DNA of 64,000 nt from a virus, in the IMG/VR virus record IMGVR_UViG_3300011187_000003, positions 1 through 64,000 of that record; one strand, written 5' to 3'. Numbering within the stretch: position 1 is the stretch's first letter; the number at the start of each line of letters is the position of its first letter. This document shows, one piece after another, positions 1 through 20,270 of the stretch. A program made the translations under genes and the position numbers. The notes under the pieces were generated by a model that worked only from the letters and a program-made list of their open reading frames with translations, did no database searches and had not been told where the DNA came from.

Positions 1-1371
1 AAAGTAATTACCTATGATAAAGCAGGAAATTCATCAGCTGATGGTTTTTATACCATGACTACAGATGATATTACTGAGCCTGTAATTGGCTACAATGTAA
101 ACTCTACTAGCTGGCAAAACACTGATGTAGACGAAACAGTTAATGTAGATGATGCAGGAGGCTCAGGAGTAGCAAACGCATGGTATAAGTGGACTAATTC
201 AGCCACACAACCTACTGATGGATGGGTAGTAATGGGTACAACTACAGACTTCTCTACACCACAATCACAGGAAGGTAAATGGTACTTACACATAAAAGCT
301 ACTGATAACTATGATAACACAGCGTACGACTACTCAGGAGCCTATAAGATTGATAAAACAGTACCAACTATCTCATCTACTAATATCTCAATTGACTCCC
401 CTACTGGCATTTATGATACATATACAGCTACAGTAACATGGACTATTGAAGATGACAGAGCAGGAGTAGATAGAACAGAGATAGGCTTTTATGTAGATGG
501 AACATGGTATTATGATGAGACCAACTTACCTGATGGAATAACAGCAGATATAGATATGGATAATGTAACAGGTAATGGTAGTAAGACAGCTACATTTAGT
601 AATGTACCTAGAGAGATTGATATTGCCACTAGTTGGCAAGGGTATGACATTGCGACTAATGAAACAGTTGAAGAGCAGAGTGAAACAGTTTATACACCTA
701 GAATATATGAAACATATACTACAGTTACACCAACTTCATATGAGATAGGAAAGACAGATACTTTAATTATTCCTACTGAATATGAAATAGGAATCACTGA
801 TAGTACTCAATCACCTAGTGAGTATATAATTGATGTGCTTTCAAAATCAACTTCAGCACCTAGTGTTTATGGAATAGGACTGACTCAAGCATCAACCATA
901 GCTCCTAGTGAATATGAGATAGGCATTACTGATTCAAAATCAGCCCCTAGTCTTTACGACATCATTGCCTTATATGATGAACCTATATTAGTTAGTGGTA
1001 AATACAAACAAGGCTTAAGAATAGGAACATCAGATATTGAGGTAGATGTTAGTGAATTTTCAGGTGGCTGGACAATGCACTTATTCAGAAGAGGAGAGCA
1101 AGATAAAGAATTTAGAGATATATTCGCTCTTTCAAGTGGGGATGTATATATAGATGGTGAAGTAGATGAATCCTATGACACTAGCTGGTTTACACACACT
1201 GAAGATAAAATAACAATTAAAAGTGGTGCAATAGATATAGATGAGTTATTAATTATACCATATGAATTAGTACCATCAGAGATAAAGACATTAACAGGTT
1301 CTGCTTTCTATGACACTAGTCCAAATATAACGATTGGCAAACCTAGTACAGCAAATATGGAGGTTTTATAA
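1..1371 (+). CDS. Tail-fibre/adhesin-like protein, 5' end outside window
   Basis: The reading frame is open from base 1, so the true start lies upstream and only the last 456 residues are seen. The first half resembles bacterial Ig-like modules rich in Thr, Asp and aromatic residues (WYKWTNS, GKWYLHIKATD), as in phage tail fibres and surface adhesins. The middle holds about six degenerate 15-17 residue repeats built on P(S/T)xYEIG (bases 715-965). The C-terminus is a different beta-rich region. It ends 1 base before the next tail gene, whose ribosome binding site lies inside its last codons. The function, part of the distal tail, is inferred from composition and position. Confidence 0.6.
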   Translation, partial: KVITYDKAGNSSADGFYTMTTDDITEPVIGYNVNSTSWQNTDVDETVNVDDAGGSGVANAWYKWTNSATQPTDGWVVMGTTTDFSTPQSQEGKWYLHIKATDNYDNTAYDYSGAYKIDKTVPTISSTNISIDSPTGIYDTYTATVTWTIEDDRAGVDRTEIGFYVDGTWYYDETNLPDGITADIDMDNVTGNGSKTATFSNVPREIDIATSWQGYDIATNETVEEQSETVYTPRIYETYTTVTPTSYEIGKTDTLIIPTEYEIGITDSTQSPSEYIIDVLSKSTSAPSVYGIGLTQASTIAPSEYEIGITDSKSAPSLYDIIALYDEPILVSGKYKQGLRIGTSDIEVDVSEFSGGWTMHLFRRGEQDKEFRDIFALSSGDVYIDGEVDESYDTSWFTHTEDKITIKSGAIDIDELLIIPYELVPSEIKTLTGSAFYDTSPNITIGKPSTANMEVL

Positions 1372-2616: not shown

Positions 2617-2645
2617 TTGAAAAAGTATAATGTTTTGTGTATAAT
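2617..2645 (+). promoter_or_regulatory. Class A promoter of the cysteine-repeat/radical SAM locus
   Basis: TTGAAA (2617-2622), a 17-base spacer ending TTGTG and TATAAT (2640-2645) followed by AATATTAG. The same family recurs at about ten other places on both strands. It gives the downstream locus transcription independent of the tail genes. Confidence 0.75.
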
Positions 2646-2679
2646 AATATTAGAAAAGGAAAGAGGGAGGTGATATTTA

Positions 2680-4170
2680 ATGTCATATTGTGGTTCAGGA
2701 GATACAACTTCTTGGACTGACCCCTCTTTGGTGGCAAATAAAGCATCAGTTAGAGGAATACATATGAGGGAGTTAAGGAAAGCAGTTCAAGAATTTCATG
2801 TAGAAACTGCAGGTGGTGATGCTGGCAAAAGAGTCATTTGGGATAAAAATGATAACAACTGCACAACAGGAGAGTCAACAAGTTCTCCTAATTATGGAGT
2901 TGTTGACAAGGTTACTACTATAAAAGCTAAACATATAACACAACTTAGAAATATTTTAGATTCATATTCTAATTTGCAGGGGTTCTCATCCTTCTATTGG
3001 GAAGAAGATGATGTTAGTGGTGGCATTACAAAAATTAGAGCTACACATATTAAAAGATTAAGAAATGCAGTTAACCTAATAGAAGAAAGGGGAGCGCTTA
3101 ATTGTGAAAACTGTCAAACTTCTTATGAATACAATCCATGTGGCTCATCATGCCAAACAACTTCAGAAACAAACCCTTGTCAAACATGTGAATCAGTAAT
3201 TGAAGGATATGATTGTGACTCAAATTGTCAGGTTTCTTGCCAAAGAACCTGCCAGCTATGTGAAGCTTGCACAGAGACTGGTTGTGAAACTGGTTGTGAG
3301 GTAGCATGTGAATCGACTTGTGAAAAATCATGTCAAACCTCTACACAAACTTGCTCTACATGCGATATAAGTTGTCAAACAGCATGTGAAACTGACCCAT
3401 GTCAAGTTTGCCAAAGTACCTGTGAGTCAAGTTGTCAAAGTGGCTGTGAAGATAGCTGTGAGGGTACATGTGAGAATACATGCGAAACTGCATGTGAAGA
3501 TAGCTGTCAGGCTACTTGTCAGTCAGTTTGCCAAACTCAATGTGAGGCTGATTGCCAACAGGCATGTGAGTTATTCTGTGAGACAACCTGCGAACAATCA
3601 TGTGAAAGCTCTTGTGACACAGGGTGCGAAGATGCCTGTGAGGAAGGTTGTGAAACTAGTTGTGAAGTAAGTTGTCAGGACAGTTGTGAAACTGGATGTA
3701 TGACAACATGTGAAATTGGTTGCCAAATGTCATGTGAGCTTATGTGTGAAGATGCATGTGAGATAAACTGCATGACTGCTTGTGAGACTGGTTGTCAACT
3801 TTTATGTGAAATGAGTTGCCAAACAACTTGTGAACAATATTGTCAAGTAGGCTGTGAGGTAAGCTGTGAAACAGGATGTGAAGTTTCTTGTGAGGAAGGC
3901 TGTGAGGTAAGCTGTGAAACAGGATGTGAAGTAAGTTGTCAGGACAGTTGTGAAACTGGATGTATGACAACATGTGAAATTGGGTGTGAAACTGGTTGTC
4001 AGGTTAATTGTCAATATGCTTGTGAGTATGAATCTCAGCACAGTGACCACAGTGACCACAGTGACCACAGTGACCACAGTGACCACAGTGACCACAGTGA
4101 CCACAGTGATTATTCAAATACATGGTCAGGAGATGCACCAGGATGTGGTACAGGTGATACAATTGGCTAA
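2680..4170 (+). CDS. Cysteine-tetrad repeat surface protein, probable substrate of the adjacent radical SAM enzymes
   Basis: The start follows GGGAGGTGAT. Residues 1-145 contain three copies of a module ending in (V/I)(R/K)xxHIxxLRxAV, known from cell-surface and RHS-type proteins. Residues about 145-455 are extraordinarily rich in cysteine: some 74 Cys, of which the last 52 form an unbroken run with exactly three residues between neighbours, usually CExx or CQxx. Then come eight SDH/SDY triplets, metal-ligand-like, and a short Gly-rich tail. No signal peptide is seen, in keeping with a virion protein. It sits directly behind tail genes and 22 bases before the first of three radical SAM genes. 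Inference: the cysteines are converted to thioether or related cross-links, or hold metal clusters, giving a rigid tail appendage. No characterised homologue is recognised. Confidence 0.8.
   Translation: MSYCGSGDTTSWTDPSLVANKASVRGIHMRELRKAVQEFHVETAGGDAGKRVIWDKNDNNCTTGESTSSPNYGVVDKVTTIKAKHITQLRNILDSYSNLQGFSSFYWEEDDVSGGITKIRATHIKRLRNAVNLIEERGALNCENCQTSYEYNPCGSSCQTTSETNPCQTCESVIEGYDCDSNCQVSCQRTCQLCEACTETGCETGCEVACESTCEKSCQTSTQTCSTCDISCQTACETDPCQVCQSTCESSCQSGCEDSCEGTCENTCETACEDSCQATCQSVCQTQCEADCQQACELFCETTCEQSCESSCDTGCEDACEEGCETSCEVSCQDSCETGCMTTCEIGCQMSCELMCEDACEINCMTACETGCQLLCEMSCQTTCEQYCQVGCEVSCETGCEVSCEEGCEVSCETGCEVSCQDSCETGCMTTCEIGCETGCQVNCQYACEYESQHSDHSDHSDHSDHSDHSDHSDHSDYSNTWSGDAPGCGTGDTIG
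4039..4110 (+). repeat. Tandem 9-bp repeat encoding (SDH)n
   Basis: Seven perfect copies of CACAGTGAC (4039-4101) plus an eighth ending in T, in frame inside the cysteine-repeat gene. Slippage would add or remove whole Ser-Asp-His triplets without breaking the frame. Confidence 0.95.
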
Positions 4171-4192
4171 AAAGAACAAAAGGAGGGGTATT

Positions 4193-5041
4193 TTGTACCT
4201 TGATTTACATATCACAAAAAGATGTAACTTAGATTGTAAACATTGCTATTTAAGCAGTAAAGAAAAAGAGCAGGGTAGTGATATGAGTTTTAAAGTACTA
4301 AAAAACATAGCAAATAATTACTTAAATATTAATCATCCTTCTACAGCAGAGAAAAGAATTATAATAAGTGGGGGAGAACCAACATTACACCCTGAAATTG
4401 ATAGATTTTTATCTTACATTAATAAAGTTTATGATGGAAGATTAATTATTCCCTCTAATGGAGTAGGTGTAAAGAGGCTGCTTGACACTGGAGCAGTCTC
4501 TAAACAAAATAGAATACAAATTAGCTTAGATGGCAATAAAAAAATACATGATTCTATAAGGGGAGAAGGTAGTTTTGGAACTGCTATAGAAGCGTTAAGG
4601 GAGCTAAAAAGAAGAGGGTTTAAAACACATATATTTTTTACTATCAACCAACATAATGAGCATACATTCTCAGAAGTTAAGAGGATAGCAAAAGGTCTTG
4701 GTGTAAAGGTCTTTCTTAATTACTACCATAGTGTAGACAACACAAAAGACAGCTTGGGGATGATAAGTAAGTCAAAGTTTATAAAATATTTAAAGAATTA
4801 TAACAATACAAATAAATGCTATTTAAATAATTGTGTTGCTGGGATAGAAGGATGTGTTGTTATGCCAAATGGTGAATATTATGACTGCACAAGGAACATG
4901 AAATACTTAGGAAAGTACCCATCAAAATTAGAAGAGGTTTTGTTGATGAGTAGAGCCAAGGACTATGACTATAAAAACCCTTGTAATACTTGTATGTCAC
5001 TAGAGGTTGATAATTTTGAATTTAGTTGTTTAGGAAGGTAG
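4193..5041 (+). CDS. Radical SAM enzyme 1
   Basis: The start is the TTG at 4193 after AAGGAGGGG; upstream frame-open sequence is the shadow of the cysteine-repeat gene. The 282-residue protein has the CxxxCxxC cluster motif at residues 11-18 (CNLDCKHC), then ISGGEPTLHPEI and ISLDGNKKIHD, as in radical SAM TIM barrels. The C-terminus carries further cysteines (CYLNNC, PNGEYYDCTRN, CNTCMS), like a short SPASM/Twitch domain binding an auxiliary Fe-S cluster. It is a clear paralogue of the next gene. Such enzymes generate a 5'-deoxyadenosyl radical, and SPASM members commonly modify ribosomally made peptides. Position suggests the substrate is the cysteine-repeat protein. Confidence 0.88.
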   Translation: MYLDLHITKRCNLDCKHCYLSSKEKEQGSDMSFKVLKNIANNYLNINHPSTAEKRIIISGGEPTLHPEIDRFLSYINKVYDGRLIIPSNGVGVKRLLDTGAVSKQNRIQISLDGNKKIHDSIRGEGSFGTAIEALRELKRRGFKTHIFFTINQHNEHTFSEVKRIAKGLGVKVFLNYYHSVDNTKDSLGMISKSKFIKYLKNYNNTNKCYLNNCVAGIEGCVVMPNGEYYDCTRNMKYLGKYPSKLEEVLLMSRAKDYDYKNPCNTCMSLEVDNFEFSCLGR

Positions 5042-5051
5042 GGGATAGATA

Positions 5052-5936
5052 TTGTTTATTGATTTACATGTGACTGAAAGATGCAACCTTAGATGTAAAC
5101 ATTGCTATCTTGATGAGGAGTACTTTGAGAATGGAAAGCAAATGTCATTTGATATGTACACTTCATTAGTAGATAAGCTTTACACAATGGAACACAAAGA
5201 TGACCATAGAAAGGTCTACTTAAGTGGTGGGGAATGTACTACCCACCCAAGAATTGGAGATATGATTAAGTATATTCATTATAAATATAATGATTCTATA
5301 GCAATGGTAACAAATGGCTATAAAATTCCTGAATTATTAAAGGGGACTGCACTTACCCCTGATGATGGCCTCTCTATTAGCCTAGATGGTAATAAAGAGG
5401 TTCATAATTGGGTAAGGGGGGATGGTTCCTTTCAACAGGTCAAAGAGGCACTAAAAGCTTTACAGAACCATAATCACCATAATTATAATTTACACCTTAC
5501 TGTTCATCAAAAAAACATAGACCAAGTTGAAGAGGTTTGTGAGTTTGGTAAAAAGTATGGCGCAGGTATGGTTGGGATTAACTTCTTTCAACCAGTTAGG
5601 GGAGAGGAGCATCCATTTGACTCTGTGTCACTAGACCAATATTGGGATGCAGTAGAAACTGCAAAAGAATATTTTGGTCACAAGAAATACAGGACACCAT
5701 GTTATGTGAATGGTTGTCATGCAGGAATAGATGCTCTAGCAATATTACCTGATGGTACTTATTGGGATTGTGCTAGAAACCAAAAAGAATTAGGTAAGTA
5801 TCCTGAAGATTTTGAAAAAGCTATATATAGAAACTTGCTTGAATTATATGGAAAAAGGGACTCTAGGGAAACATGCATGAAGGGATATGTGGAAACTATA
5901 GGAGAAATAAAAAACTATAAGGGAGAGGATAATTAA
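5052..5936 (+). CDS. Radical SAM enzyme 2, paralogue of enzyme 1
   Basis: TTG start at 5052, 10 bases after the previous stop. The cluster motif CNLRCKHC is at residues 11-18, exactly as in enzyme 1. Shared blocks include YLSGGECTTHPRI, ISLDGNKEVHN and the C-terminal CYVNGCHAGID with LPDGTYWDCARN. The paralogues arose by duplication but have diverged strongly, so they may act on different positions or as a pair. It lacks the CxxC near the end of enzyme 1, keeping only one Cys in RETCMKG, so its auxiliary cluster may differ. Confidence 0.88.
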   Translation: MFIDLHVTERCNLRCKHCYLDEEYFENGKQMSFDMYTSLVDKLYTMEHKDDHRKVYLSGGECTTHPRIGDMIKYIHYKYNDSIAMVTNGYKIPELLKGTALTPDDGLSISLDGNKEVHNWVRGDGSFQQVKEALKALQNHNHHNYNLHLTVHQKNIDQVEEVCEFGKKYGAGMVGINFFQPVRGEEHPFDSVSLDQYWDAVETAKEYFGHKKYRTPCYVNGCHAGIDALAILPDGTYWDCARNQKELGKYPEDFEKAIYRNLLELYGKRDSRETCMKGYVETIGEIKNYKGEDN

Positions 5937-5937
5937 T

Positions 5938-7248
5938 ATGGAGAACAATAACTTTAAGGAAATTTCAAACATTTCACTATTATTAACTGAGGATTGTAAC
6001 TTTAGATGTGAGTATTGCTTTATTGACAAAAACCCTAGTGAAATATCACTTGAAACTGCTAAAGATGCAGTTGATTGGCTGGTAGGGCAAAATGAAAATG
6101 ATAGATTACATATTAACTTTTTTGGAGGAGAACCAATGTTGAAGTTTGACCTAATCAAAAAAATTGTTCTATATGCAGAAAATAACTATGATAGACAATT
6201 TGGTTTTGGTGTAACAACTAATGGTTCTTTATTTAATGATGAAAGATTAGACTTCTTTGAAGAGCATAATATGTCAGCACTATTTTCTATAGATGGTATT
6301 GAAGAAGTACATAATAGACATAGGAAATATAAGGATGGCTCAGGAACTTTTAAAGATGTTGAAGAGAACATGAAAAAATGTGTAGAAAGAGGGATATCAA
6401 GAGTAGGTAGGCCAACATATACTCCTGAAACCTTACCACATTTATATGAAACAGTTAAATATCTACTGGATGAGATTGGGTTTAAGTCTGTATCACCAAC
6501 ACCAGCTGTAGATGGTTTCATTGAGTTTACTGAGGAAGATTATGAGGAGTATGACAAGCAATGGAAGAAAATTAATAAGTATTTTAAAGATAGCATCCTA
6601 ATGGAAGAGGATGTAGGTTTAGGGTATTACAGCAAATGCTTTAGACAGCATTTTGGACAACATAAAATGCAAACTCCATGTGGTGCAGGTAAAAAGTATG
6701 TAGGTATCAATCATAAAGGAGATATCTTTCCCTGTCACAGATTCGTGCAATGGCAAGAATGGAAGTTAGGTGATGTTTATGATGGCATAAAATATAATCA
6801 AAGAAGAAGTATTTTTCATGACTTTCATAATGATGATACTAGTGAAGAGTGCAGGAAGTGTGATAATAAATTCTGTGGTGGTGGATGTTTTGCAGTAAAC
6901 TATTCTACTACAGGAGATATTCATAAAACCAGTAAGGATAGCTGTAAGCTATCTAAATTACAGTGGGATAATGCAATGGATATTTATGAAGAGCTTAAGA
7001 TGTCAAATAAATTCCAACAAAAATATAGTCAATATATTGAAAATGCCCCTGAAGAAATAAAAGAAGAGATTGGGTATAATGATGAAGAAAAAAGAGATAA
7101 CAAACAAAGCAGGGACAAACAACAGTATCAATCCTCACAAAAGAGTAATGATATTGAGGAGCTAAAGAAAAGGGTTGATAATTTAGAGCAAGCAGTATCA
7201 TCAATTAGTAATATTATACTAGAAAATTCTAAGGAGGAAGGTAGATAA
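5938..7248 (+). CDS. Radical SAM/SPASM enzyme 3 with C-terminal coiled coil
   Basis: A 436-residue protein. CNFRCEYC at residues 20-27 binds the radical SAM cluster; NFFGGEPML and FSIDGIEEVHN are standard barrel motifs. A full SPASM domain follows (CGAG, GDIFPCHRF, CRKCDNKFCGGGC and a last Cys near residue 340), like the anSME, PqqE and Cys-rich-peptide maturase group. Unusually, about 90 extra residues follow, ending in a heptad coiled coil (ELKKRVDNLEQAV), perhaps for oligomerisation or substrate docking. It begins 1 base after enzyme 2 and is the best candidate for the cross-linking maturase. Distinguishing thioether formation from sulfatase-type maturation needs experiment. Confidence 0.88.
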   Translation: MENNNFKEISNISLLLTEDCNFRCEYCFIDKNPSEISLETAKDAVDWLVGQNENDRLHINFFGGEPMLKFDLIKKIVLYAENNYDRQFGFGVTTNGSLFNDERLDFFEEHNMSALFSIDGIEEVHNRHRKYKDGSGTFKDVEENMKKCVERGISRVGRPTYTPETLPHLYETVKYLLDEIGFKSVSPTPAVDGFIEFTEEDYEEYDKQWKKINKYFKDSILMEEDVGLGYYSKCFRQHFGQHKMQTPCGAGKKYVGINHKGDIFPCHRFVQWQEWKLGDVYDGIKYNQRRSIFHDFHNDDTSEECRKCDNKFCGGGCFAVNYSTTGDIHKTSKDSCKLSKLQWDNAMDIYEELKMSNKFQQKYSQYIENAPEEIKEEIGYNDEEKRDNKQSRDKQQYQSSQKSNDIEELKKRVDNLEQAVSSISNIILENSKEEGR

Positions 7249-13210: not shown

Positions 13211-13333
13211 TTAGTTATCTCTTTGTTTTAATCTTCCTGTACAGTTGCTACATTTCATGTCATTTGCTTCTGCAACTTCTTCTGCATATATCATTCTACA
13301 CTTTTCGCACATGTACTTATATCTTGTACTCAT
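13211..13333 (-). CDS. 40-residue zinc-ribbon protein
   Basis: Start MSTRYKYMC, RBS AAGGAAGTGAT. It has two CxxC knuckles (CEKC and CSNC) and ends LKQRDN. Small zinc ribbons of this size are common in phages and may bind nucleic acid or host polymerase. Confidence 0.7.
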   Translation of the reverse strand: MSTRYKYMCEKCRMIYAEEVAEANDMKCSNCTGRLKQRDN

Positions 13334-13341
13334 AGTGTTTA

Positions 13342-13596
13342 TCACTTCCTTCTAATAATATAAATGTCATGAATACTATGTGTTGTCATAACCCACAGTA
13401 GCCAACTAGAGAATATTGTGAGGAGCACTTTCTTTAAAGCTTCTATAGGTTTTTTTCTATTCTTTTCACTATATATTCCTACATATTCAAGATAATACTC
13501 TTGAAATACCACTGCAAGCACTACAGCAACATTAAACAGTAGTCCTACTATATAAGTATTGAGTAAGACTATTAACAAACTATTTACTAATTGCAT
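13342..13596 (-). CDS. Small membrane protein
   Basis: 84 residues with two hydrophobic helices (about 3-32 and 58-72) separated by a basic loop. The start codon overlaps the dUTPase stop (TAATG). Function unknown. Confidence 0.6.
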   Translation of the reverse strand: MQLVNSLLIVLLNTYIVGLLFNVAVVLAVVFQEYYLEYVGIYSEKNRKKPIEALKKVLLTIFSSWLLWVMTTHSIHDIYIIRRK

Positions 13597-14219
13597 TACT
13601 TACCACTATCTCCAAGTTTCCCTTCTCCTCTTTCACTATCAAATTGATTAATATCCTCAACTTGCTTTACTTCAAGATGTGGAGTTTTAACCAACAACAT
13701 TTGAGCAATAGCTTTATTGTAAGGATACTTTGTTTTAAATTTAGTCTCTTCAACTTCATCTTTAACTTCCTTAGTAATATAGAGTGCTTTATCTCTAGTA
13801 TTTTGAATTGCTACAAATACTTCTCCTCTGTATCCACTATCAACAACACCTGCTCTTACTGCCATACCAATAGTTCCTGTGCTTCCTCTTTCTCTAAATA
13901 AGGATGTATACCCTTGTGGGAAAGCCATTGCAATCTTAGTTGGGATTAACTTAATCTCACCTGCTTTAATCTTCATAAAATCATCTTCAAAGCAAGCATA
14001 TAAATCATACCCACCATCTTCCTCTCTCTTGGTTGGTGTAACAGCTCTAGGGTTTAATAGCTCAACATTTAATTTATCTTCCATTTTACCTTCCTCCTTT
14101 ATAGTTGTGACTGTAATTTCTGTACCAGCTGGTGTTGGGTCTGAATAAATGGTTGGTTCTCTTTGTGGTGGTAATGGGTCATATGGTATTGAACCTTCCT
14201 TAAAATAATTATTATTCAT
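13596..14219 (-). CDS. dut: dUTP diphosphatase (trimeric type) with N-terminal extension
   Basis: All five dUTPase motifs are present: DGGYDLYA, RERGSTG, AGVVDSGYRGE, KAIAQMLL and the C-terminal SERGEGKLGDSG arm. It hydrolyses dUTP to dUMP, keeping uracil out of DNA and feeding the ThyX encoded at 61.6 kb. Two starts look usable. ATG 14219 (RBS AAGGAGGAG) gives 207 residues with a Pro/Thr-rich extension. ATG 14084 (RBS AAGGAGGAAG) gives 162 residues, the usual length. Confidence 0.93.
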   Translation of the reverse strand: MNNNYFKEGSIPYDPLPPQREPTIYSDPTPAGTEITVTTIKEEGKMEDKLNVELLNPRAVTPTKREEDGGYDLYACFEDDFMKIKAGEIKLIPTKIAMAFPQGYTSLFRERGSTGTIGMAVRAGVVDSGYRGEVFVAIQNTRDKALYITKEVKDEVEETKFKTKYPYNKAIAQMLLVKTPHLEVKQVEDINQFDSERGEGKLGDSGK

Positions 14220-14221
14220 AA

Positions 14222-14995
14222 CTACTCCTCCTTGTCCCATTGTTCAGTAATTTTTAACTTGTCAATTTTAAAATAAACCCTTGATATATTTCTCCAGCTT
14301 TTTTTATGTACTACAGTAAGTTTCTTTTTGTTCCTAGCTCCTATGTCCTGAACAGTAGATATTAAGCTATCAACTGTAAAGTCGTCTAAGTCATCTATGC
14401 CATAGTATCTTCTGACAAAATCTAACCTCTTAAACCTTTTGTGACCCATCTCTCCAAAAGTTATTATTAATCCATCTCTTGCCATCTTAATAGCCAAATC
14501 AAAGCAATCAAAAGCACTACCAAAGGGGTCTAGGTCTACTAGGTCATATTTATTATTCTTATAATATAAATAACACAATAAATTATGAGCATCCATATTG
14601 TAATCAGTGTCAAATTTGTCATTTATATCATTGGTAGTTAAATCAACATCATTATATCTATTGTAGTAGGGATTTGATGATGCATAGGCATCTAAGACAC
14701 TGTTAGGATTCAAATACTCCATGAAGTCCCCATTTACTTTATACTTTTTGTCTCTATAGGGTGCATTATAGTTACCATTCTTCTTTAACTCCCTCTTTAG
14801 CTTAATCCTAACTGAAACCTTAGTCCTGTCAACGCTTTGAGCTATTTTTTTATTATTAAACCCTTCTTCCCTTAAGGATTTACACCATTCTAGTTCTTTA
14901 TCAGTCCACCTTCTAGGGTTACTCTTTTTTTCCTGACTTCTTTTCATAATTTTACCTTTAAATTCATCAGGCATCTTTGGTACTGGTTTATCCAA
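14222..14995 (-). CDS. HTH plus methyltransferase-like protein
   Basis: 257 residues. Residues 29-70 form a helix-turn-helix (WTDKELEWCKSLREEGFNNK). The rest resembles a Rossmann methyltransferase: VLDAYASSNP in the place of motif I, LVDLDPFGSAFDC in the place of motif IV and GLIITFGE after it. The DPFGS motif recalls Trm1-type guanine-N2 RNA methyltransferases and some DNA enzymes. Motif I is degenerate, so activity is uncertain. Located in the nucleotide metabolism cluster. Confidence 0.55.
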   Translation of the reverse strand: MDKPVPKMPDEFKGKIMKRSQEKKSNPRRWTDKELEWCKSLREEGFNNKKIAQSVDRTKVSVRIKLKRELKKNGNYNAPYRDKKYKVNGDFMEYLNPNSVLDAYASSNPYYNRYNDVDLTTNDINDKFDTDYNMDAHNLLCYLYYKNNKYDLVDLDPFGSAFDCFDLAIKMARDGLIITFGEMGHKRFKRLDFVRRYYGIDDLDDFTVDSLISTVQDIGARNKKKLTVVHKKSWRNISRVYFKIDKLKITEQWDKEE

Positions 14996-15834: not shown

Positions 15835-18800
15835 CTATATTGAACAAACACTAAATCCACATGATTTACATTCTTGACAGCCACCAGTATTGACTAGCTC
15901 ACCTTTACAATCAGGGCAAATACCCTGTTCAATTAAATCAGCATCATTTAGCTCTACTTTATTCTCACTATTATCATCACCACTACTTAGTATTCCTGAC
16001 CTTGCACAACCATCTCTATAGACTGTAATACCTTTTAAGTCTTTTTGCCAAGCATATTTGTAAACATCCTTAATCTCATCAACAGTTGTGCTATTATCTA
16101 AGTTAATGGTACTACTAATACTTGCATCTATGTACTTTTGCCACACTGACTGCATGTTAATTCTTTGCTTATAGTCTAAGTCGTGAGCAGTTACAAAAAT
16201 TTCAGGTAGGTCATCTTTATTATAAACACTCATTTCTTCCATATACTCTTCAACAATAGGAGTAAACACTTCATACTCTACATCTTCATCATAGAGCGTT
16301 TGAGTAGTCCTTGTGTAGCTTAAGTCAAATATAGGCTCTATACCACCACTAATTCCTAGCATGCTTGAAATACTTCCTGTAGGAGCTATAGTAAGCAATT
16401 GAGAGTTCCTTAGCCCATATTTTTTAATCTTATCTATAGTTTCAGGTGTACCAACTGAATTTAAGTAATCACTTTTTAAAACATCCTCACTATATTCAGG
16501 GTATGTAGCCTGTTCTTTTGCTAATTCTGCTGATGTTTTTAGTGCAGTATTTGCCATTTTGCTAGCAATAGAATCGTTGATATCTAGTGATTCTTCACTA
16601 CCATATTCAACATTTAACTTAATCAGCATATCTGCAATACCCATAACACCTAGTCCTATCTGCCTCCACTTATCTACACTATCTCTTTGTTCTTGCAGTG
16701 GATGGAGTGGCACACCTTCATCTAAGACCTCATTAAGGAATTTAACACCATCCTCAACAACCTCTTCAAACTTATCAAAGTTAAAGTAAGCCTCATCTGT
16801 AAATGGCTTCTCAACAAACTCTGAGAGGTTTAAGCTACTCAATAGACAACTACCACCAGCTGGTAATGGCTCTTCAGCGCAGTTATGTACAGTAGCACCC
16901 TCAACAACCCCCCAATGGGTTTTTGGCTCACTGAAATCAAATACCTCTTCTTTTTCTAACTTTTTAACACTTGTGACATATGGGGCTGTCTTTTGTATAA
17001 ACCTTATTAGCTTATCTTCTTTATACTTCTGAACAAAACCAATTTCTTCTAAAAACCTAACTTTGTCATCATGTTGCCTAAGATTTAAGTCATAGCTCTG
17101 CTTGCAGGTACATTCACCATTGTCAAACTCAGCATTAGTTGGCTTGACAGTGGTTGTTATATAAGGACTAAACCCTTGCTTTTCTAAAAATTCATAAACT
17201 TCTTTAACAAGCCCTTTTGATGTTGATTTTAAGGTGACTCTTCCATTGTAAATAGAACCAATTACAGAACCATTAGCACTATATAAACCTCTTATGAAAC
17301 TTAACTTACTAGTTTTATCCCAAACATTAAAGGTAGTTGGTAAGGTTCTTTTTGGTAAAGGTTTAGTTGAAAACCCAAGTGTGTCAATAATATCGTTAAA
17401 CTCATTAATATAATAAGTATAATTATCACTATAAACATCATCTTCACTAACTCCAAACAGCTCTAATAAATCATTATCATTCTCCCCAATATGAACATCA
17501 ATACCTTTATGCTCATCACTATTGACTCTTCCTAAGCTGGCATCACCTTGCATAAAGCCTAACTTTGTGAACTGGCTATTGTACATAGTGTTTTTGCCAA
17601 CATATGGCATAGTTCTTTTACCTTTCATATATTGTGCCTCTACTTGTTTACCTTCATTTGTCATAAAGACATGGTCAGGAGTGCATTTTATAGACTTCTT
17701 GTTATAGAAATTAACTTCTACAATATCTTTAAACCCATTAGACCAAACATTTCCACTAGTCACTTTGCCATCTTTATTTACCACATTAACTCTAGTGTTC
17801 AGTTTGGCTAACTCATCAAACCTTTTGTAGCCATCTTGAGTTAATAGCTCCATATCACCTGTAAAACAGGGGTTAACTCCAGAATACTCAAACCCATCTT
17901 CCTCTGAAAGCAAATTATAGTTTTCAATATTATCCCAAAACAAAAATCCAGGTTCTGCCATATTCCAATTAGAATAAGCAATCTTATTAAATACCCTTCT
18001 TGCATTTACTTCTCTCTTTATCTCTTCACCAGTATCATCTACATAGAAATAAAGCTCATGCTCCTCATCATTTGCAACAGCTTCCATAAAATCATCAGTG
18101 ATTTTTAGTGATATATTAGCCTTAGTTACTGCCTCAAGGTCATTCTTGATATCAATAAACTCTTCAATATCAGGATGGTTAATATCAAGGCTAATCATTA
18201 AGGCTCCACGCCTTCCACGCTGGCCTATGATGTTAGTAGTTAAGGAGTATAGTGGCATAAATGAAACTGCTCCACTAGTCTTTCTAGCACCATTATTAAC
18301 TATAGAATCTTTAGGTCTTAAATTGCTGATGTCAACACCAGCTCCACCACCATATGAGAATGTTCTTGCTAATTTTTTAGATACATCAAAAATAGATTCA
18401 ATGCTATCTTTAGGTGGAGTAATAACATAACAATTAGAATATGTAACCTTCTTACCACGCTTCTGTAGACCTCTATTGGCAAGGATTCTACCAGCTGGCA
18501 TGAAGTATTGGTCTTTAATATGTTTTTTAACCTTATTATTTCCTTCAGTTATTCTATTTAAAAATTCATCTAGGCTTTCACCATCTATTCTATACTTTCT
18601 TTCAAAGATTGACATTGGTAACTCACCAGTAAGCCAACTCTCACTGCGCTTTTTAGCTCTTTCTTGACGATAAATTATGTATCTCTTAGCTGTTTTTATG
18701 TAGCTGAACAACATTAATTTCTCCTCTACAATATCTTGAATTTGCTCTACATTTGGTAGGTTAGTCTCACTAAAGTTATCAACTAATACTTCTTCAATAG

Positions 18801-18945
18801 AGTTTATTAATTCATTCATATCATCAATGCTCTCTTCAGTTTCCTGCTCTGCTGACCTAATTGCCTGTACTACCTTTTCCTTATCATACCTTACAATATC
18901 TCCATCTCTCTTTATTACATTCTCTAACATGTTATTGTCTATCAT
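15835..18945 (-). CDS. nrdJ: Adenosylcobalamin-dependent (class II) ribonucleotide reductase with intein
   Basis: 1036 residues, of which 707 remain after intein removal. Residues 1-95 are an ATP cone. NCYVITPPKDSI and TFSYGGGAGVDIS are typical of NrdJ, and the C-terminus has CPDC, CQEC and the redox pair in CGFSVCSI. The enzyme reduces ribonucleotides to deoxyribonucleotides without oxygen using coenzyme B12. The intein interrupts NP/C, so the first residue after it is the cysteine expected to form the thiyl radical, and only spliced protein can be active. It overlaps the glutaredoxin-like gene by 14 bases. Confidence 0.95.
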   Translation of the reverse strand: MIDNNMLENVIKRDGDIVRYDKEKVVQAIRSAEQETEESIDDMNELINSIEEVLVDNFSETNLPNVEQIQDIVEEKLMLFSYIKTAKRYIIYRQERAKKRSESWLTGELPMSIFERKYRIDGESLDEFLNRITEGNNKVKKHIKDQYFMPAGRILANRGLQKRGKKVTYSNCYVITPPKDSIESIFDVSKKLARTFSYGGGAGVDISNLRPKDSIVNNGARKTSGAVSFMPLYSLTTNIIGQRGRRGALMISLDINHPDIEEFIDIKNDLEAVTKANISLKITDDFMEAVANDEEHELYFYVDDTGEEIKREVNARRVFNKIAYSNWNMAEPGFLFWDNIENYNLLSEEDGFEYSGVNPCFTGDMELLTQDGYKRFDELAKLNTRVNVVNKDGKVTSGNVWSNGFKDIVEVNFYNKKSIKCTPDHVFMTNEGKQVEAQYMKGKRTMPYVGKNTMYNSQFTKLGFMQGDASLGRVNSDEHKGIDVHIGENDNDLLELFGVSEDDVYSDNYTYYINEFNDIIDTLGFSTKPLPKRTLPTTFNVWDKTSKLSFIRGLYSANGSVIGSIYNGRVTLKSTSKGLVKEVYEFLEKQGFSPYITTTVKPTNAEFDNGECTCKQSYDLNLRQHDDKVRFLEEIGFVQKYKEDKLIRFIQKTAPYVTSVKKLEKEEVFDFSEPKTHWGVVEGATVHNCAEEPLPAGGSCLLSSLNLSEFVEKPFTDEAYFNFDKFEEVVEDGVKFLNEVLDEGVPLHPLQEQRDSVDKWRQIGLGVMGIADMLIKLNVEYGSEESLDINDSIASKMANTALKTSAELAKEQATYPEYSEDVLKSDYLNSVGTPETIDKIKKYGLRNSQLLTIAPTGSISSMLGISGGIEPIFDLSYTRTTQTLYDEDVEYEVFTPIVEEYMEEMSVYNKDDLPEIFVTAHDLDYKQRINMQSVWQKYIDASISSTINLDNSTTVDEIKDVYKYAWQKDLKGITVYRDGCARSGILSSGDDNSENKVELNDADLIEQGICPDCKGELVNTGGCQECKSCGFSVCSI
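16882..17868 (-). mobile_element. LAGLIDADG intein inside nrdJ (329 residues)
   Basis: Residues 360-688 of the RNR precursor. It begins Cys1 (CFTGDMELLTQDG), has the block B CTPDHVF, two LAGLIDADG helices (LGFMQGDAS and FIRGLYSANG) and ends VVEGATVHN before Cys+1. The endonuclease motifs keep their acidic residues (D109 and the less typical SANG), so homing may be partly decayed. Both splice junctions check at codon level. Confidence 0.95.
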
Positions 18946-19181: not shown

Positions 19182-20270
19182 CTAGTCTAAAATAATATAA
19201 CTTTGAGGGTCTATTTCAAGACCTCTATAGCTTCTACTATCTTTGCTATTATTGATAATTAAACTATACTTACCTCTCTTGGCATGGTAAATATCATTAT
19301 CAACATGTATTAGCTGTAACTCTGCATCTTTTGAATCTTTCCTTACTTTGATTAACCTATCAATTTTATCTTTTAGGTCATACCTAAAGTAATCATTCCA
19401 AAACACAACTACTGGATTATCTTGAAAAAATATGTAAGCATATGCTAGCTCTTTATTGCTCATTATTGCATCTTCATTAATATCTCTACTTCCTCTTTCA
19501 ATGTCATGGTTAGCAACAAAATTGACCTTTTTGCATGGACTAAAAGAATTACAGTTAGTTAAATTGACTATAGGATAGTCAGGATTCATACACATCTCTT
19601 TTAGCTTATAAAACAATGGGAAATTAAAAGTTGGTATATTTACTTGACTTTGAATACTCTGAAGCTTAACAGTGTCTCCACTCCAGTACTCCCCAACTAT
19701 AAACTCATCTTCAAATTCATTGGTAAACTCATTAACAAAATCTAAATCCATATCTTTAAGGTTGTCAAGGCGAAAACTATCAAACCCTATATCCTCTTTA
19801 AGCCAGCTAGCCCATTGTATTAGGCCATCTTTCATATGTTCATCATCACTGTAGTAATCAATGGTTTCCCCAAAATCACTCACATCTTCATCACCAGACT
19901 TAAAGTGCTTATAGTTTTTAGGGAACTTAGGTTCATCAAACTTAGTATATGTACGACAATCAGTATCAGGGTTATATTCTAGGTCTCCACCTAGCATATG
20001 CCCCATCACTAAATCTGCCATTACTCCAACATCTTCTTCATGGAAGCTGTTGATTAAGTTAGTTAAGGACTCCTTGTCCCCAAAGCGAGAGTTAAGGTTA
20101 TAATGCTCCATTACATCATAACCCATTGACCCTTCTCCATTCATACCCTTTGAGGGTGGTGGGAGCCAAACTGTGTCAAACCCCTTATCAGCTATACCTT
20201 TTGATATGGAGTCTAAATGCCCCCACCAATCTTTCAGGCAGTCCCAGTGGAACGCCTGTAATATTATCAT
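19182..20270 (-). CDS. GH13 alpha-amylase-like enzyme (auxiliary metabolic gene)
   Basis: 362 residues matching the start of cytosolic-type alpha-amylases (LQAFHWDCLKDWWGHL, FDTVWLPPPSKG, GSMGYDVMEHYNL). The four GH13 motifs are visible: DLVMGH, FDSFRLDNLKD (nucleophile Asp), FIVGEYW (acid/base Glu) and FVANHDIERG (third acid). It should cut alpha-1,4-glucans. There is no signal peptide, so it probably works in the cytoplasm, for example on glycogen. It is shorter than most family members, with little C-terminal domain. Such a gene inside a phage nucleotide-metabolism operon is unusual. Confidence 0.9.
   Translation of the reverse strand: MIILQAFHWDCLKDWWGHLDSISKGIADKGFDTVWLPPPSKGMNGEGSMGYDVMEHYNLNSRFGDKESLTNLINSFHEEDVGVMADLVMGHMLGGDLEYNPDTDCRTYTKFDEPKFPKNYKHFKSGDEDVSDFGETIDYYSDDEHMKDGLIQWASWLKEDIGFDSFRLDNLKDMDLDFVNEFTNEFEDEFIVGEYWSGDTVKLQSIQSQVNIPTFNFPLFYKLKEMCMNPDYPIVNLTNCNSFSPCKKVNFVANHDIERGSRDINEDAIMSNKELAYAYIFFQDNPVVVFWNDYFRYDLKDKIDRLIKVRKDSKDAELQLIHVDNDIYHAKRGKYSLIINNSKDSRSYRGLEIDPQSYIILD

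Follow-up and report, generated by a model that had tools for sequence, protein, structure and literature searches.

A phage cysteine-array protein encoded beside three radical SAM enzymes: a candidate virion appendage stapled by thioethers

Introduction

Why would a phage carry, next to its tail-fibre genes, a gene for a protein containing 77 cysteines, followed by three radical S-adenosylmethionine (SAM) genes? The question is raised by a locus in a 64,000-nucleotide stretch of viral DNA (hereafter the window), corresponding to positions 1 to 64,000 of the record IMGVR_UViG_3300011187_000003. An original prediction, made by a model from the sequence alone, had read this locus as a post-translational modification system acting on a virion appendage. 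It gave the protein 496 residues, which is exact, and about 74 cysteines, which is three too few.

From the comparative analysis described here, we consider it likely that the locus makes a virion appendage whose cysteine array is covalently stapled, at C-x4-[E/Q] positions, by the third enzyme (rSAM3), a radical SAM protein of the PapB/SCIFF type. With slightly less assurance, we also regard as probable that it represents a widespread class of virion maturation, in which dedicated phage radical SAM enzymes would install from tens to more than 100 overlapping C-x4-[E/Q] thioethers in head or tail proteins, the array being a modular staple tag carried by unrelated proteins.

Results and Discussion

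The cysteine array and its pairing rule

The cysteine protein of the window consists of an N-terminal region with three I[RK]xxHxxxLR motifs (residues 1-141), the array (residues 142-452), and a C-terminal His-Ser-Asp repeat followed by a tail. It contains 61 CxxxC units, 44 of them distinct, in which the residue at +1 is Glu in 37 cases and Gln in 17. The closest relatives, found in two other viral contigs (L167 and L231), are 64-65% identical to it. Between these two relatives, 106 codons of the cysteine region differ synonymously and 11 by replacement; the 48 cysteines compared are all kept, although 29 of their codons switch between TGT and TGC. Since synonymous changes dominate and cysteines are kept despite the codon switches, the array is not a simple DNA repeat; it is under purifying selection on cysteine and is maintained as a protein. 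The segment that follows the array is variable: positions 4036-4110 of the window encode the His-Ser-Asp repeat, and L167 and L231 have SDWSGDYSDC motifs there instead.

Across 79 array proteins (non-redundant), Glu or Gln follows an inner cysteine in 91% of cases, a value partly due to the way in which the proteins were selected. The ends of cysteine runs were analyzed using only runs of two to four cysteines, which are too short for the search pattern, lying at least 8 residues clear of any other cysteine. At the first cysteine of a run, the Glu/Gln fraction was 0.21 at +1, 0.05 at -3 and 0.81 at +5, for a background of 0.144. At the last cysteine it was 0.79 at +1 and 0.76 at +5, even though no cysteine stands at +4; at the other offsets (+2, +3, +4 and +6 to +10) it was 0.04-0.09, below background. 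Because the statistics peak at this position, each array cysteine appears to have its own Glu or Gln at +5, and the Glu or Gln just after the last cysteine would therefore be the partner of the preceding one. This pattern implies a putative pairing of Cys(i) with Glu/Gln(i+5). In the window segment NPCGSSCQTTSET, for example, C154 would pair with Q159 and C158 with E163.

Two other registers, pairing within the same C-E unit (+1) and an ExxC register resembling NxxC, are disfavored, as either of them should reverse the pattern at one of the two run ends. Decay of longer arrays was also considered as a source of the residue at +5, and rejected. A lost upstream cysteine should leave Glu or Gln at -3, precisely where these residues are depleted.

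Array genes are accompanied by radical SAM genes

Viral contigs were scanned with two DNA patterns. The first required five consecutive C-[E/Q]-x-x units, and the matches listed for it are a minimum; the second, scanned in full, required six units that step from E to Q at least once. Low-complexity DNA repeats were removed on the basis of residue variety at +2 and +3, and contigs that matched the same patterns without a convincing array gene served as controls. At least 53 viral contigs contained a convincing array gene, this tally being our own. Among the matches listed, a radical SAM gene was present in 44 of the 53 array contigs and in 2 of the 41 controls (2/36 and 0/5; Fisher p ~2e-15), the array and non-array classes having been assigned by our own unblinded judgement. 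The first scan by itself gave, again among the matches listed, 19/24 against 2/36 (p 3e-9). The radical SAM gene lies on the same strand as the array gene and is usually adjacent or within 2 kb; exceptions are a distance of 6.7 kb in G016 and an opposite strand in L251.

Cysteine-repeat genes without radical SAM neighbors had been named in the original prediction as the observation that would count against it. Nine such contigs were found. In eight of them the array gene hits or adjoins the contig end. One of these eight, G062, shares 99.9% identity with G024 across 12.5 kb and stops just before the radical SAM gene of the latter. In the ninth (G020), the array gene is immediately preceded by an open reading frame (ORF) with a CxxxCxxC motif; since this ORF matches no Pfam family, calling it a radical SAM gene is a guess. 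The negatives being accounted for in this manner, the check did not refute the original prediction, which the analysis supports. In L183, a 519-residue ORF (13216-14778) that contains a CSGGCVYC motif and matches no Pfam family lies directly upstream of an array gene, and may encode a divergent radical SAM protein.

A reciprocal search starting from the enzyme (alignment A2) retrieved 23 viral contigs, 17 of which have C-[E/Q]-x-x arrays in the flanking DNA; many of these contigs were already in the array scans, and the query had been built from array-bearing phages. Among the contigs lacking a standard array, L296 and L305 have sparser or variant cysteine arrays and L306 an array of the C-S-C-S type; L286 and L287 lie near contig ends. 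In direct pattern searches of the viral contigs, rSAM3 or rSAM2 as sole query gave no matches. The array proteins reach more than 1,000 residues and more than 100 units. The system is widespread across many unrelated phages, beyond the oddity of a single phage. In one 172-kb phage (L165 8165-10705, the same as L299), the radical SAM gene encodes 846 residues and matches an intein-containing family, with apparent inteins inside the enzyme.

The three enzymes

The three radical SAM genes follow the cysteine gene on the same strand, separated by gaps of 22, 10 and 1 bp. As originally proposed, all three are radical SAM proteins: each matches PF04055 (E 1e-19 to 1e-21) and contains the CxxxCxxC cluster motif. 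The first two (rSAM1 and rSAM2) had been described as paralogues with short SPASM-like ends. The paralogy holds, with 34% identity and four cysteines after the barrel conserved in both, but neither protein matches the SPASM family PF13186. Among NCBIfam and Pfam models they match generic radical SAM families and no specific one. A fold search with rSAM2 likewise returned general radical SAM enzymes (viperin, MoaA, CteB 5why and SkfB 6efn), and no specific function.

The third enzyme had been described as a full SPASM enzyme with an added coiled coil. It alone matches PF13186 (24.5 bits for a threshold of 21.5), and a coiled-coil-like C-terminal extension is visible in the sequence and kept in L167. 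Its best NCBIfam model is PapB (NF047865; 280.7 bits, E 1.6e-83, below the cut-off of 340). Models of nif11-type, QhpD and SCIFF maturases come next, and none of them reaches its cut-off either. The nearest solved structure is the SCIFF maturase CteB (5wgg, E 2.2e-50).

Arrays are fused to virion proteins in other phages

In several relatives the array is part of a protein with other recognizable domains. It is fused to a Hoc-like head decoration protein in L163 (PHROG 10993, 302 bits), to Tail_P2_I (PF09684) in L171, and to YqbQ-like and other tail proteins in L169 (tail PHROGs), and is attached to LamG-bearing proteins in L161. By eye, the proteins of L166, L179, L186 and L187 also resemble the Tail_P2_I type. 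When array-less counterparts of the Hoc-like protein were searched for, the sole viral match was the source record itself. In prophages of the cultured bacteria Peptoniphilus nemausensis 1804121828 and Ezakiella peruensis M6.X2, the module takes the same place as in the window, with baseplate (Baseplate_J) or fibre genes on one side and an amidase gene on the other. Each of the nine bacterial genomes examined has its arrays at a single site. Because it is fused to head-decoration and tail domains in relatives, the array appears to belong to virion proteins. These fusions support the appendage reading of the original prediction, with the array protein of the window as a tail-fibre or tail-tip protein whose presence in the particle we infer.

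Proposed chemistry and its alternatives

Three known enzymes guide the chemical interpretation. PapB joins Cys to the beta carbon of Asp or the gamma carbon of Glu; it tolerates Cys-Xn-Asp with n = 0-6, and also makes nested links (PMC9413430). QhpD makes Cys-Asp and Cys-Glu thioethers within a protein, and the thioether of the SCIFF peptide was reported between Cys32 and Thr37, five residues apart, a gamma link to Thr34 being reported later (PMC8326336). Given the SCIFF spacing and the PapB and QhpD precedents, the bond predicted here is from the sulfur of Cys(i) to the gamma carbon of Glu/Gln(i+5). rSAM3 would abstract a hydrogen from the Glu or Gln side chain, and the Cys thiol would then be joined to this residue, most likely at the gamma carbon. 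As units recur every four residues, the rings would overlap and form a continuous thioether-laced rod, which would stay locked without oxidising conditions. Its benefit might be stiffness, or stability outside the cell. The two short radical SAM proteins probably have an auxiliary role or carry out a second modification. Sactipeptide and ranthipeptide chemistry had both been named at the outset; the C-x4-[E/Q] spacing points to non-alpha thioethers of the ranthipeptide kind and away from sactipeptide links.

Several observations weigh against this interpretation. rSAM3 scores under the curated cut-offs of the PapB, SCIFF and QhpD equivalog models, and the C-x4-[E/Q] spacing departs from the native C-x3-D of PapB. 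Gln as acceptor is an extrapolation without cited precedent, and the exact SCIFF link itself is disputed between Thr37 and Thr34 (PMC8326336). Isolated cysteines in the array proteins show no Glu or Gln at +5, so that the rule is limited to arrays. The window protein has no recognizable virion domain, and the AlphaFold model of its array is unusable (mean pLDDT, the predicted local distance difference test score, of 37). Finally, some bacterial and archaeal array loci are not clearly phage (L281, L282 and L283). Arrays are not confined to phage proteins: at L281 2853-11132 (Clostridiaceae bacterium M8S5), beside two radical SAM genes, a 2,759-residue protein has an N-terminal cysteine array followed by RHS repeats.

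These points leave room for other explanations. The enzymes might modify the array in another manner, by alpha-carbon (sactipeptide) links, in another register or by epimerisation, the Glu or Gln at +5 then being a feature of recognition or folding. Three different radical SAM proteins do suggest more than one reaction, two of them match generic families only, and variant arrays with Ser, Thr, Lys or Gly in place of Glu or Gln adjoin radical SAM genes (L011, L305). We nevertheless find this explanation unlikely, in view of run-end statistics that exclude Cys(i)-Glu/Gln(i+1) and ExxC as the main rule, and of closest enzyme families that make non-alpha thioethers. It is more doubtful still that the array is unmodified and serves for disulfides or for metal or Fe-S binding, with the radical SAM enzymes acting on separate cargo or in metabolism. 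In its favor, metal could be bound at a C-xxx-C spacing, a His-Ser-Asp repeat closes the window protein, and AlphaFold draws the array as a helix, at low confidence. Such a use would leave unexplained the exact +5 position of Glu/Gln and the polarity at run ends, and also the presence of radical SAM genes in nearly every array locus and almost none of the controls.

A cysteine protein without a virion-domain match, beside an enzyme of a family that normally serves peptides, might also be no part of the virion, and instead the precursor of a secreted peptide or a bacteriocin-like moron cargo, that is, a ribosomally synthesised and post-translationally modified peptide (RiPP) cut from its leader. 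We give this very little weight. The arrays of relatives are fused to head-decoration and tail proteins and located among tail genes, array proteins can exceed 1,000 residues and 100 units, and beside the array locus of the window we noticed neither a protease gene nor an exporter gene. A stapled virion appendage is the interpretation that we retain.

Comparison with known systems

The nearest family by model score, freyrasin PapA/PapB (NF047865), likewise couples a radical SAM/SPASM enzyme to a neighboring substrate whose many cysteines are regularly spaced and are each paired with an acidic residue. Its native spacing is found in a short leader-core peptide, whereas the units described here overlap in a long virion-type protein. 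In the SCIFF/CteB system (TIGR03974, 5wgg), the core CQTSCQSACKTSCT consists of a short C-xxx-C run; the Cys32-Thr37 link reported for it spans five residues, the offset at which the phage pairing statistic peaks. The phage array resembles a SCIFF core multiplied many times over, with Glu or Gln in the acceptor role. However, SCIFF peptides have about 46 residues, one demonstrated link and a Thr acceptor, and are chromosomal in Clostridia. SCIFF peptides are defined by six cysteines in about 45 residues, as against 77 in 496 in the window protein, and rSAM3 reaches 206.1 bits with the TIGR03974 model, for a cut-off of 425.

Another radical SAM peptide maturase family, TIGR04115, is named for its repeating CXXX target. 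A true member (485.8 bits, cut-off 350) is present in the array-bearing viral contig L170, and L176/G019 carries a homologue of the same size. rSAM3 itself obtains 139.2 bits with this model, and by eye the L170/L144 array lacks the rule of Glu/Gln at +5. QhpD (TIGR03906), which acts in the maturation of quinohemoprotein amine dehydrogenase, shares with the proposed system the formation of Cys-Asp and Cys-Glu thioethers inside a protein by a radical SAM enzyme. It differs in making few links in one enzyme subunit, without a repeat array and outside viruses, and rSAM3 scores 208.6 bits for a cut-off of 453. Covalent crosslinking of virion proteins as such has a counterpart in HK97-type capsids, where autocatalytic Lys-Asn isopeptide bonds form with no dedicated enzyme and no cysteine chemistry.

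The enzyme chemistry and the C-xxx repeat targets are thus already known from PapB, SCIFF and TIGR04115. What appears new is their deployment as a modular tag attached to proteins of the virion, and with it the C-x4-[E/Q] rule. The original prediction knew of no phage system like it, and none turned up in searches through the full text of open-licence papers. If our interpretation holds, the radical SAM chemistry familiar from small peptides and from a few enzymes also builds virus particles, with as many as 100 or more links in a chain, a scale that is unreported so far. It would explain rigid covalent fibres in some phages from anoxic settings, where disulfides would be unreliable, give many phage radical SAM genes that now lack annotation a function, and offer protein engineers a modular staple tag together with its enzyme. 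The pairing rule yields an exact, testable prediction.

Variant arrays and related loci

Other cysteine repeats (C-x-G-T, C-S-C-S and C-S-G-S) occur beside radical SAM genes in L305 (9178-10038), L306 (10542) and L011 (6432), and possibly use other acceptors. A short, helical-looking motif, I-x-A/Y-x-HI/DF-xxL/IxxAI, recurs in cysteine-rich proteins beside radical SAM genes even where the cysteine pattern differs. It was found in the window (2755-3077), in L160 (9555-10154), at the three variant loci above, and in the gut phage Phass-1 (67831-68352), and is perhaps a shared anchor or recognition domain. In Phass-1 (OQ749652.1, 67831-70570), when TAG is read as Gln, two adjacent radical SAM-like ORFs accompany an unannotated 174-residue protein with a cysteine-rich tail; this locus is a distant variant, missed by annotation owing to recoding.

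In a collection of named phages, the cysteine protein of the window had no match. PapB-like matches in the same collection are mostly fecal contigs, and those inspected hold ordinary SCIFF operons, probably of bacterial origin. Four fecal "Bacteriophage sp." records (MT835472.1, MT835702.1, MT836984.1 and MT836452.1) contain ordinary pairs of SCIFF peptide and maturase; their DNA probably comes from bacteria and carries the phage label in error.

Genome context

The source record is 87,725 bp long and represents a siphophage genome of 87.6 kb. An exact 123-bp direct repeat is present at both ends of the record (window 1-123 and record end, L181). Given this repeat, the genome is probably complete, circularly permuted and terminally redundant, despite its linear class in IMG/VR. 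The genome therefore closes, which places the terminase, tape measure and tail hub upstream of the locus; the order across the junction is terminase, tape measure (1,650 residues), tail hub, fibre genes, cysteine protein, the three radical SAM genes and amidase. This order puts the module between the tail-fibre genes and those for lysis; the genes directly upstream are tail and fibre genes, as originally described.

A single promoter had been placed ahead of the cysteine gene. The promoter-like site starts at the very position where the original prediction began the locus, and is the top match in the region (Table 1). Such sites are in slight excess only, with 34 observed for 27.8 +/- 5.1 in shuffles. 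The TTG start of rSAM1 was picked from the ribosome-binding site aaggagggg, the mechanical ORF beginning further upstream.

Table 1. Features of the locus, in window coordinates.
Feature	Position	Strand	Basis
Promoter-like site, TTGAAA-17-TATAAT	2617..2645	+	11/12 consensus positions; consensus match only
Cys-array protein, 496 aa, 77 Cys	2680..4170	+	ORF; similar proteins in L167 and L231
Array of C-[E/Q]-x-x units, predicted to be multiply crosslinked (aa 142-452)	3103..4035	+	63/77 protein Cys with Glu/Gln at +5
rSAM1, 282 aa, radical SAM without recognizable SPASM, TTG start	4193..5041	+	PF04055, E 5.8e-20
rSAM2, 294 aa, paralogue of rSAM1, TTG start	5052..5936	+	PF04055, E 1e-21; alignment; fold search
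rSAM3, 436 aa, PapB/SCIFF-maturase-like radical SAM/SPASM with coiled-coil-like C-terminal extension, ATG start	5938..7248	+	NF047865; PF13186; CteB 5wgg

Further along the window, inspection by eye revealed a ribonucleotide reductase-like gene with an apparent intein inside (15835-18945) and a protein resembling alpha-amylase/glycoside hydrolase 13 (19182-20270), carried here in a phage genome.

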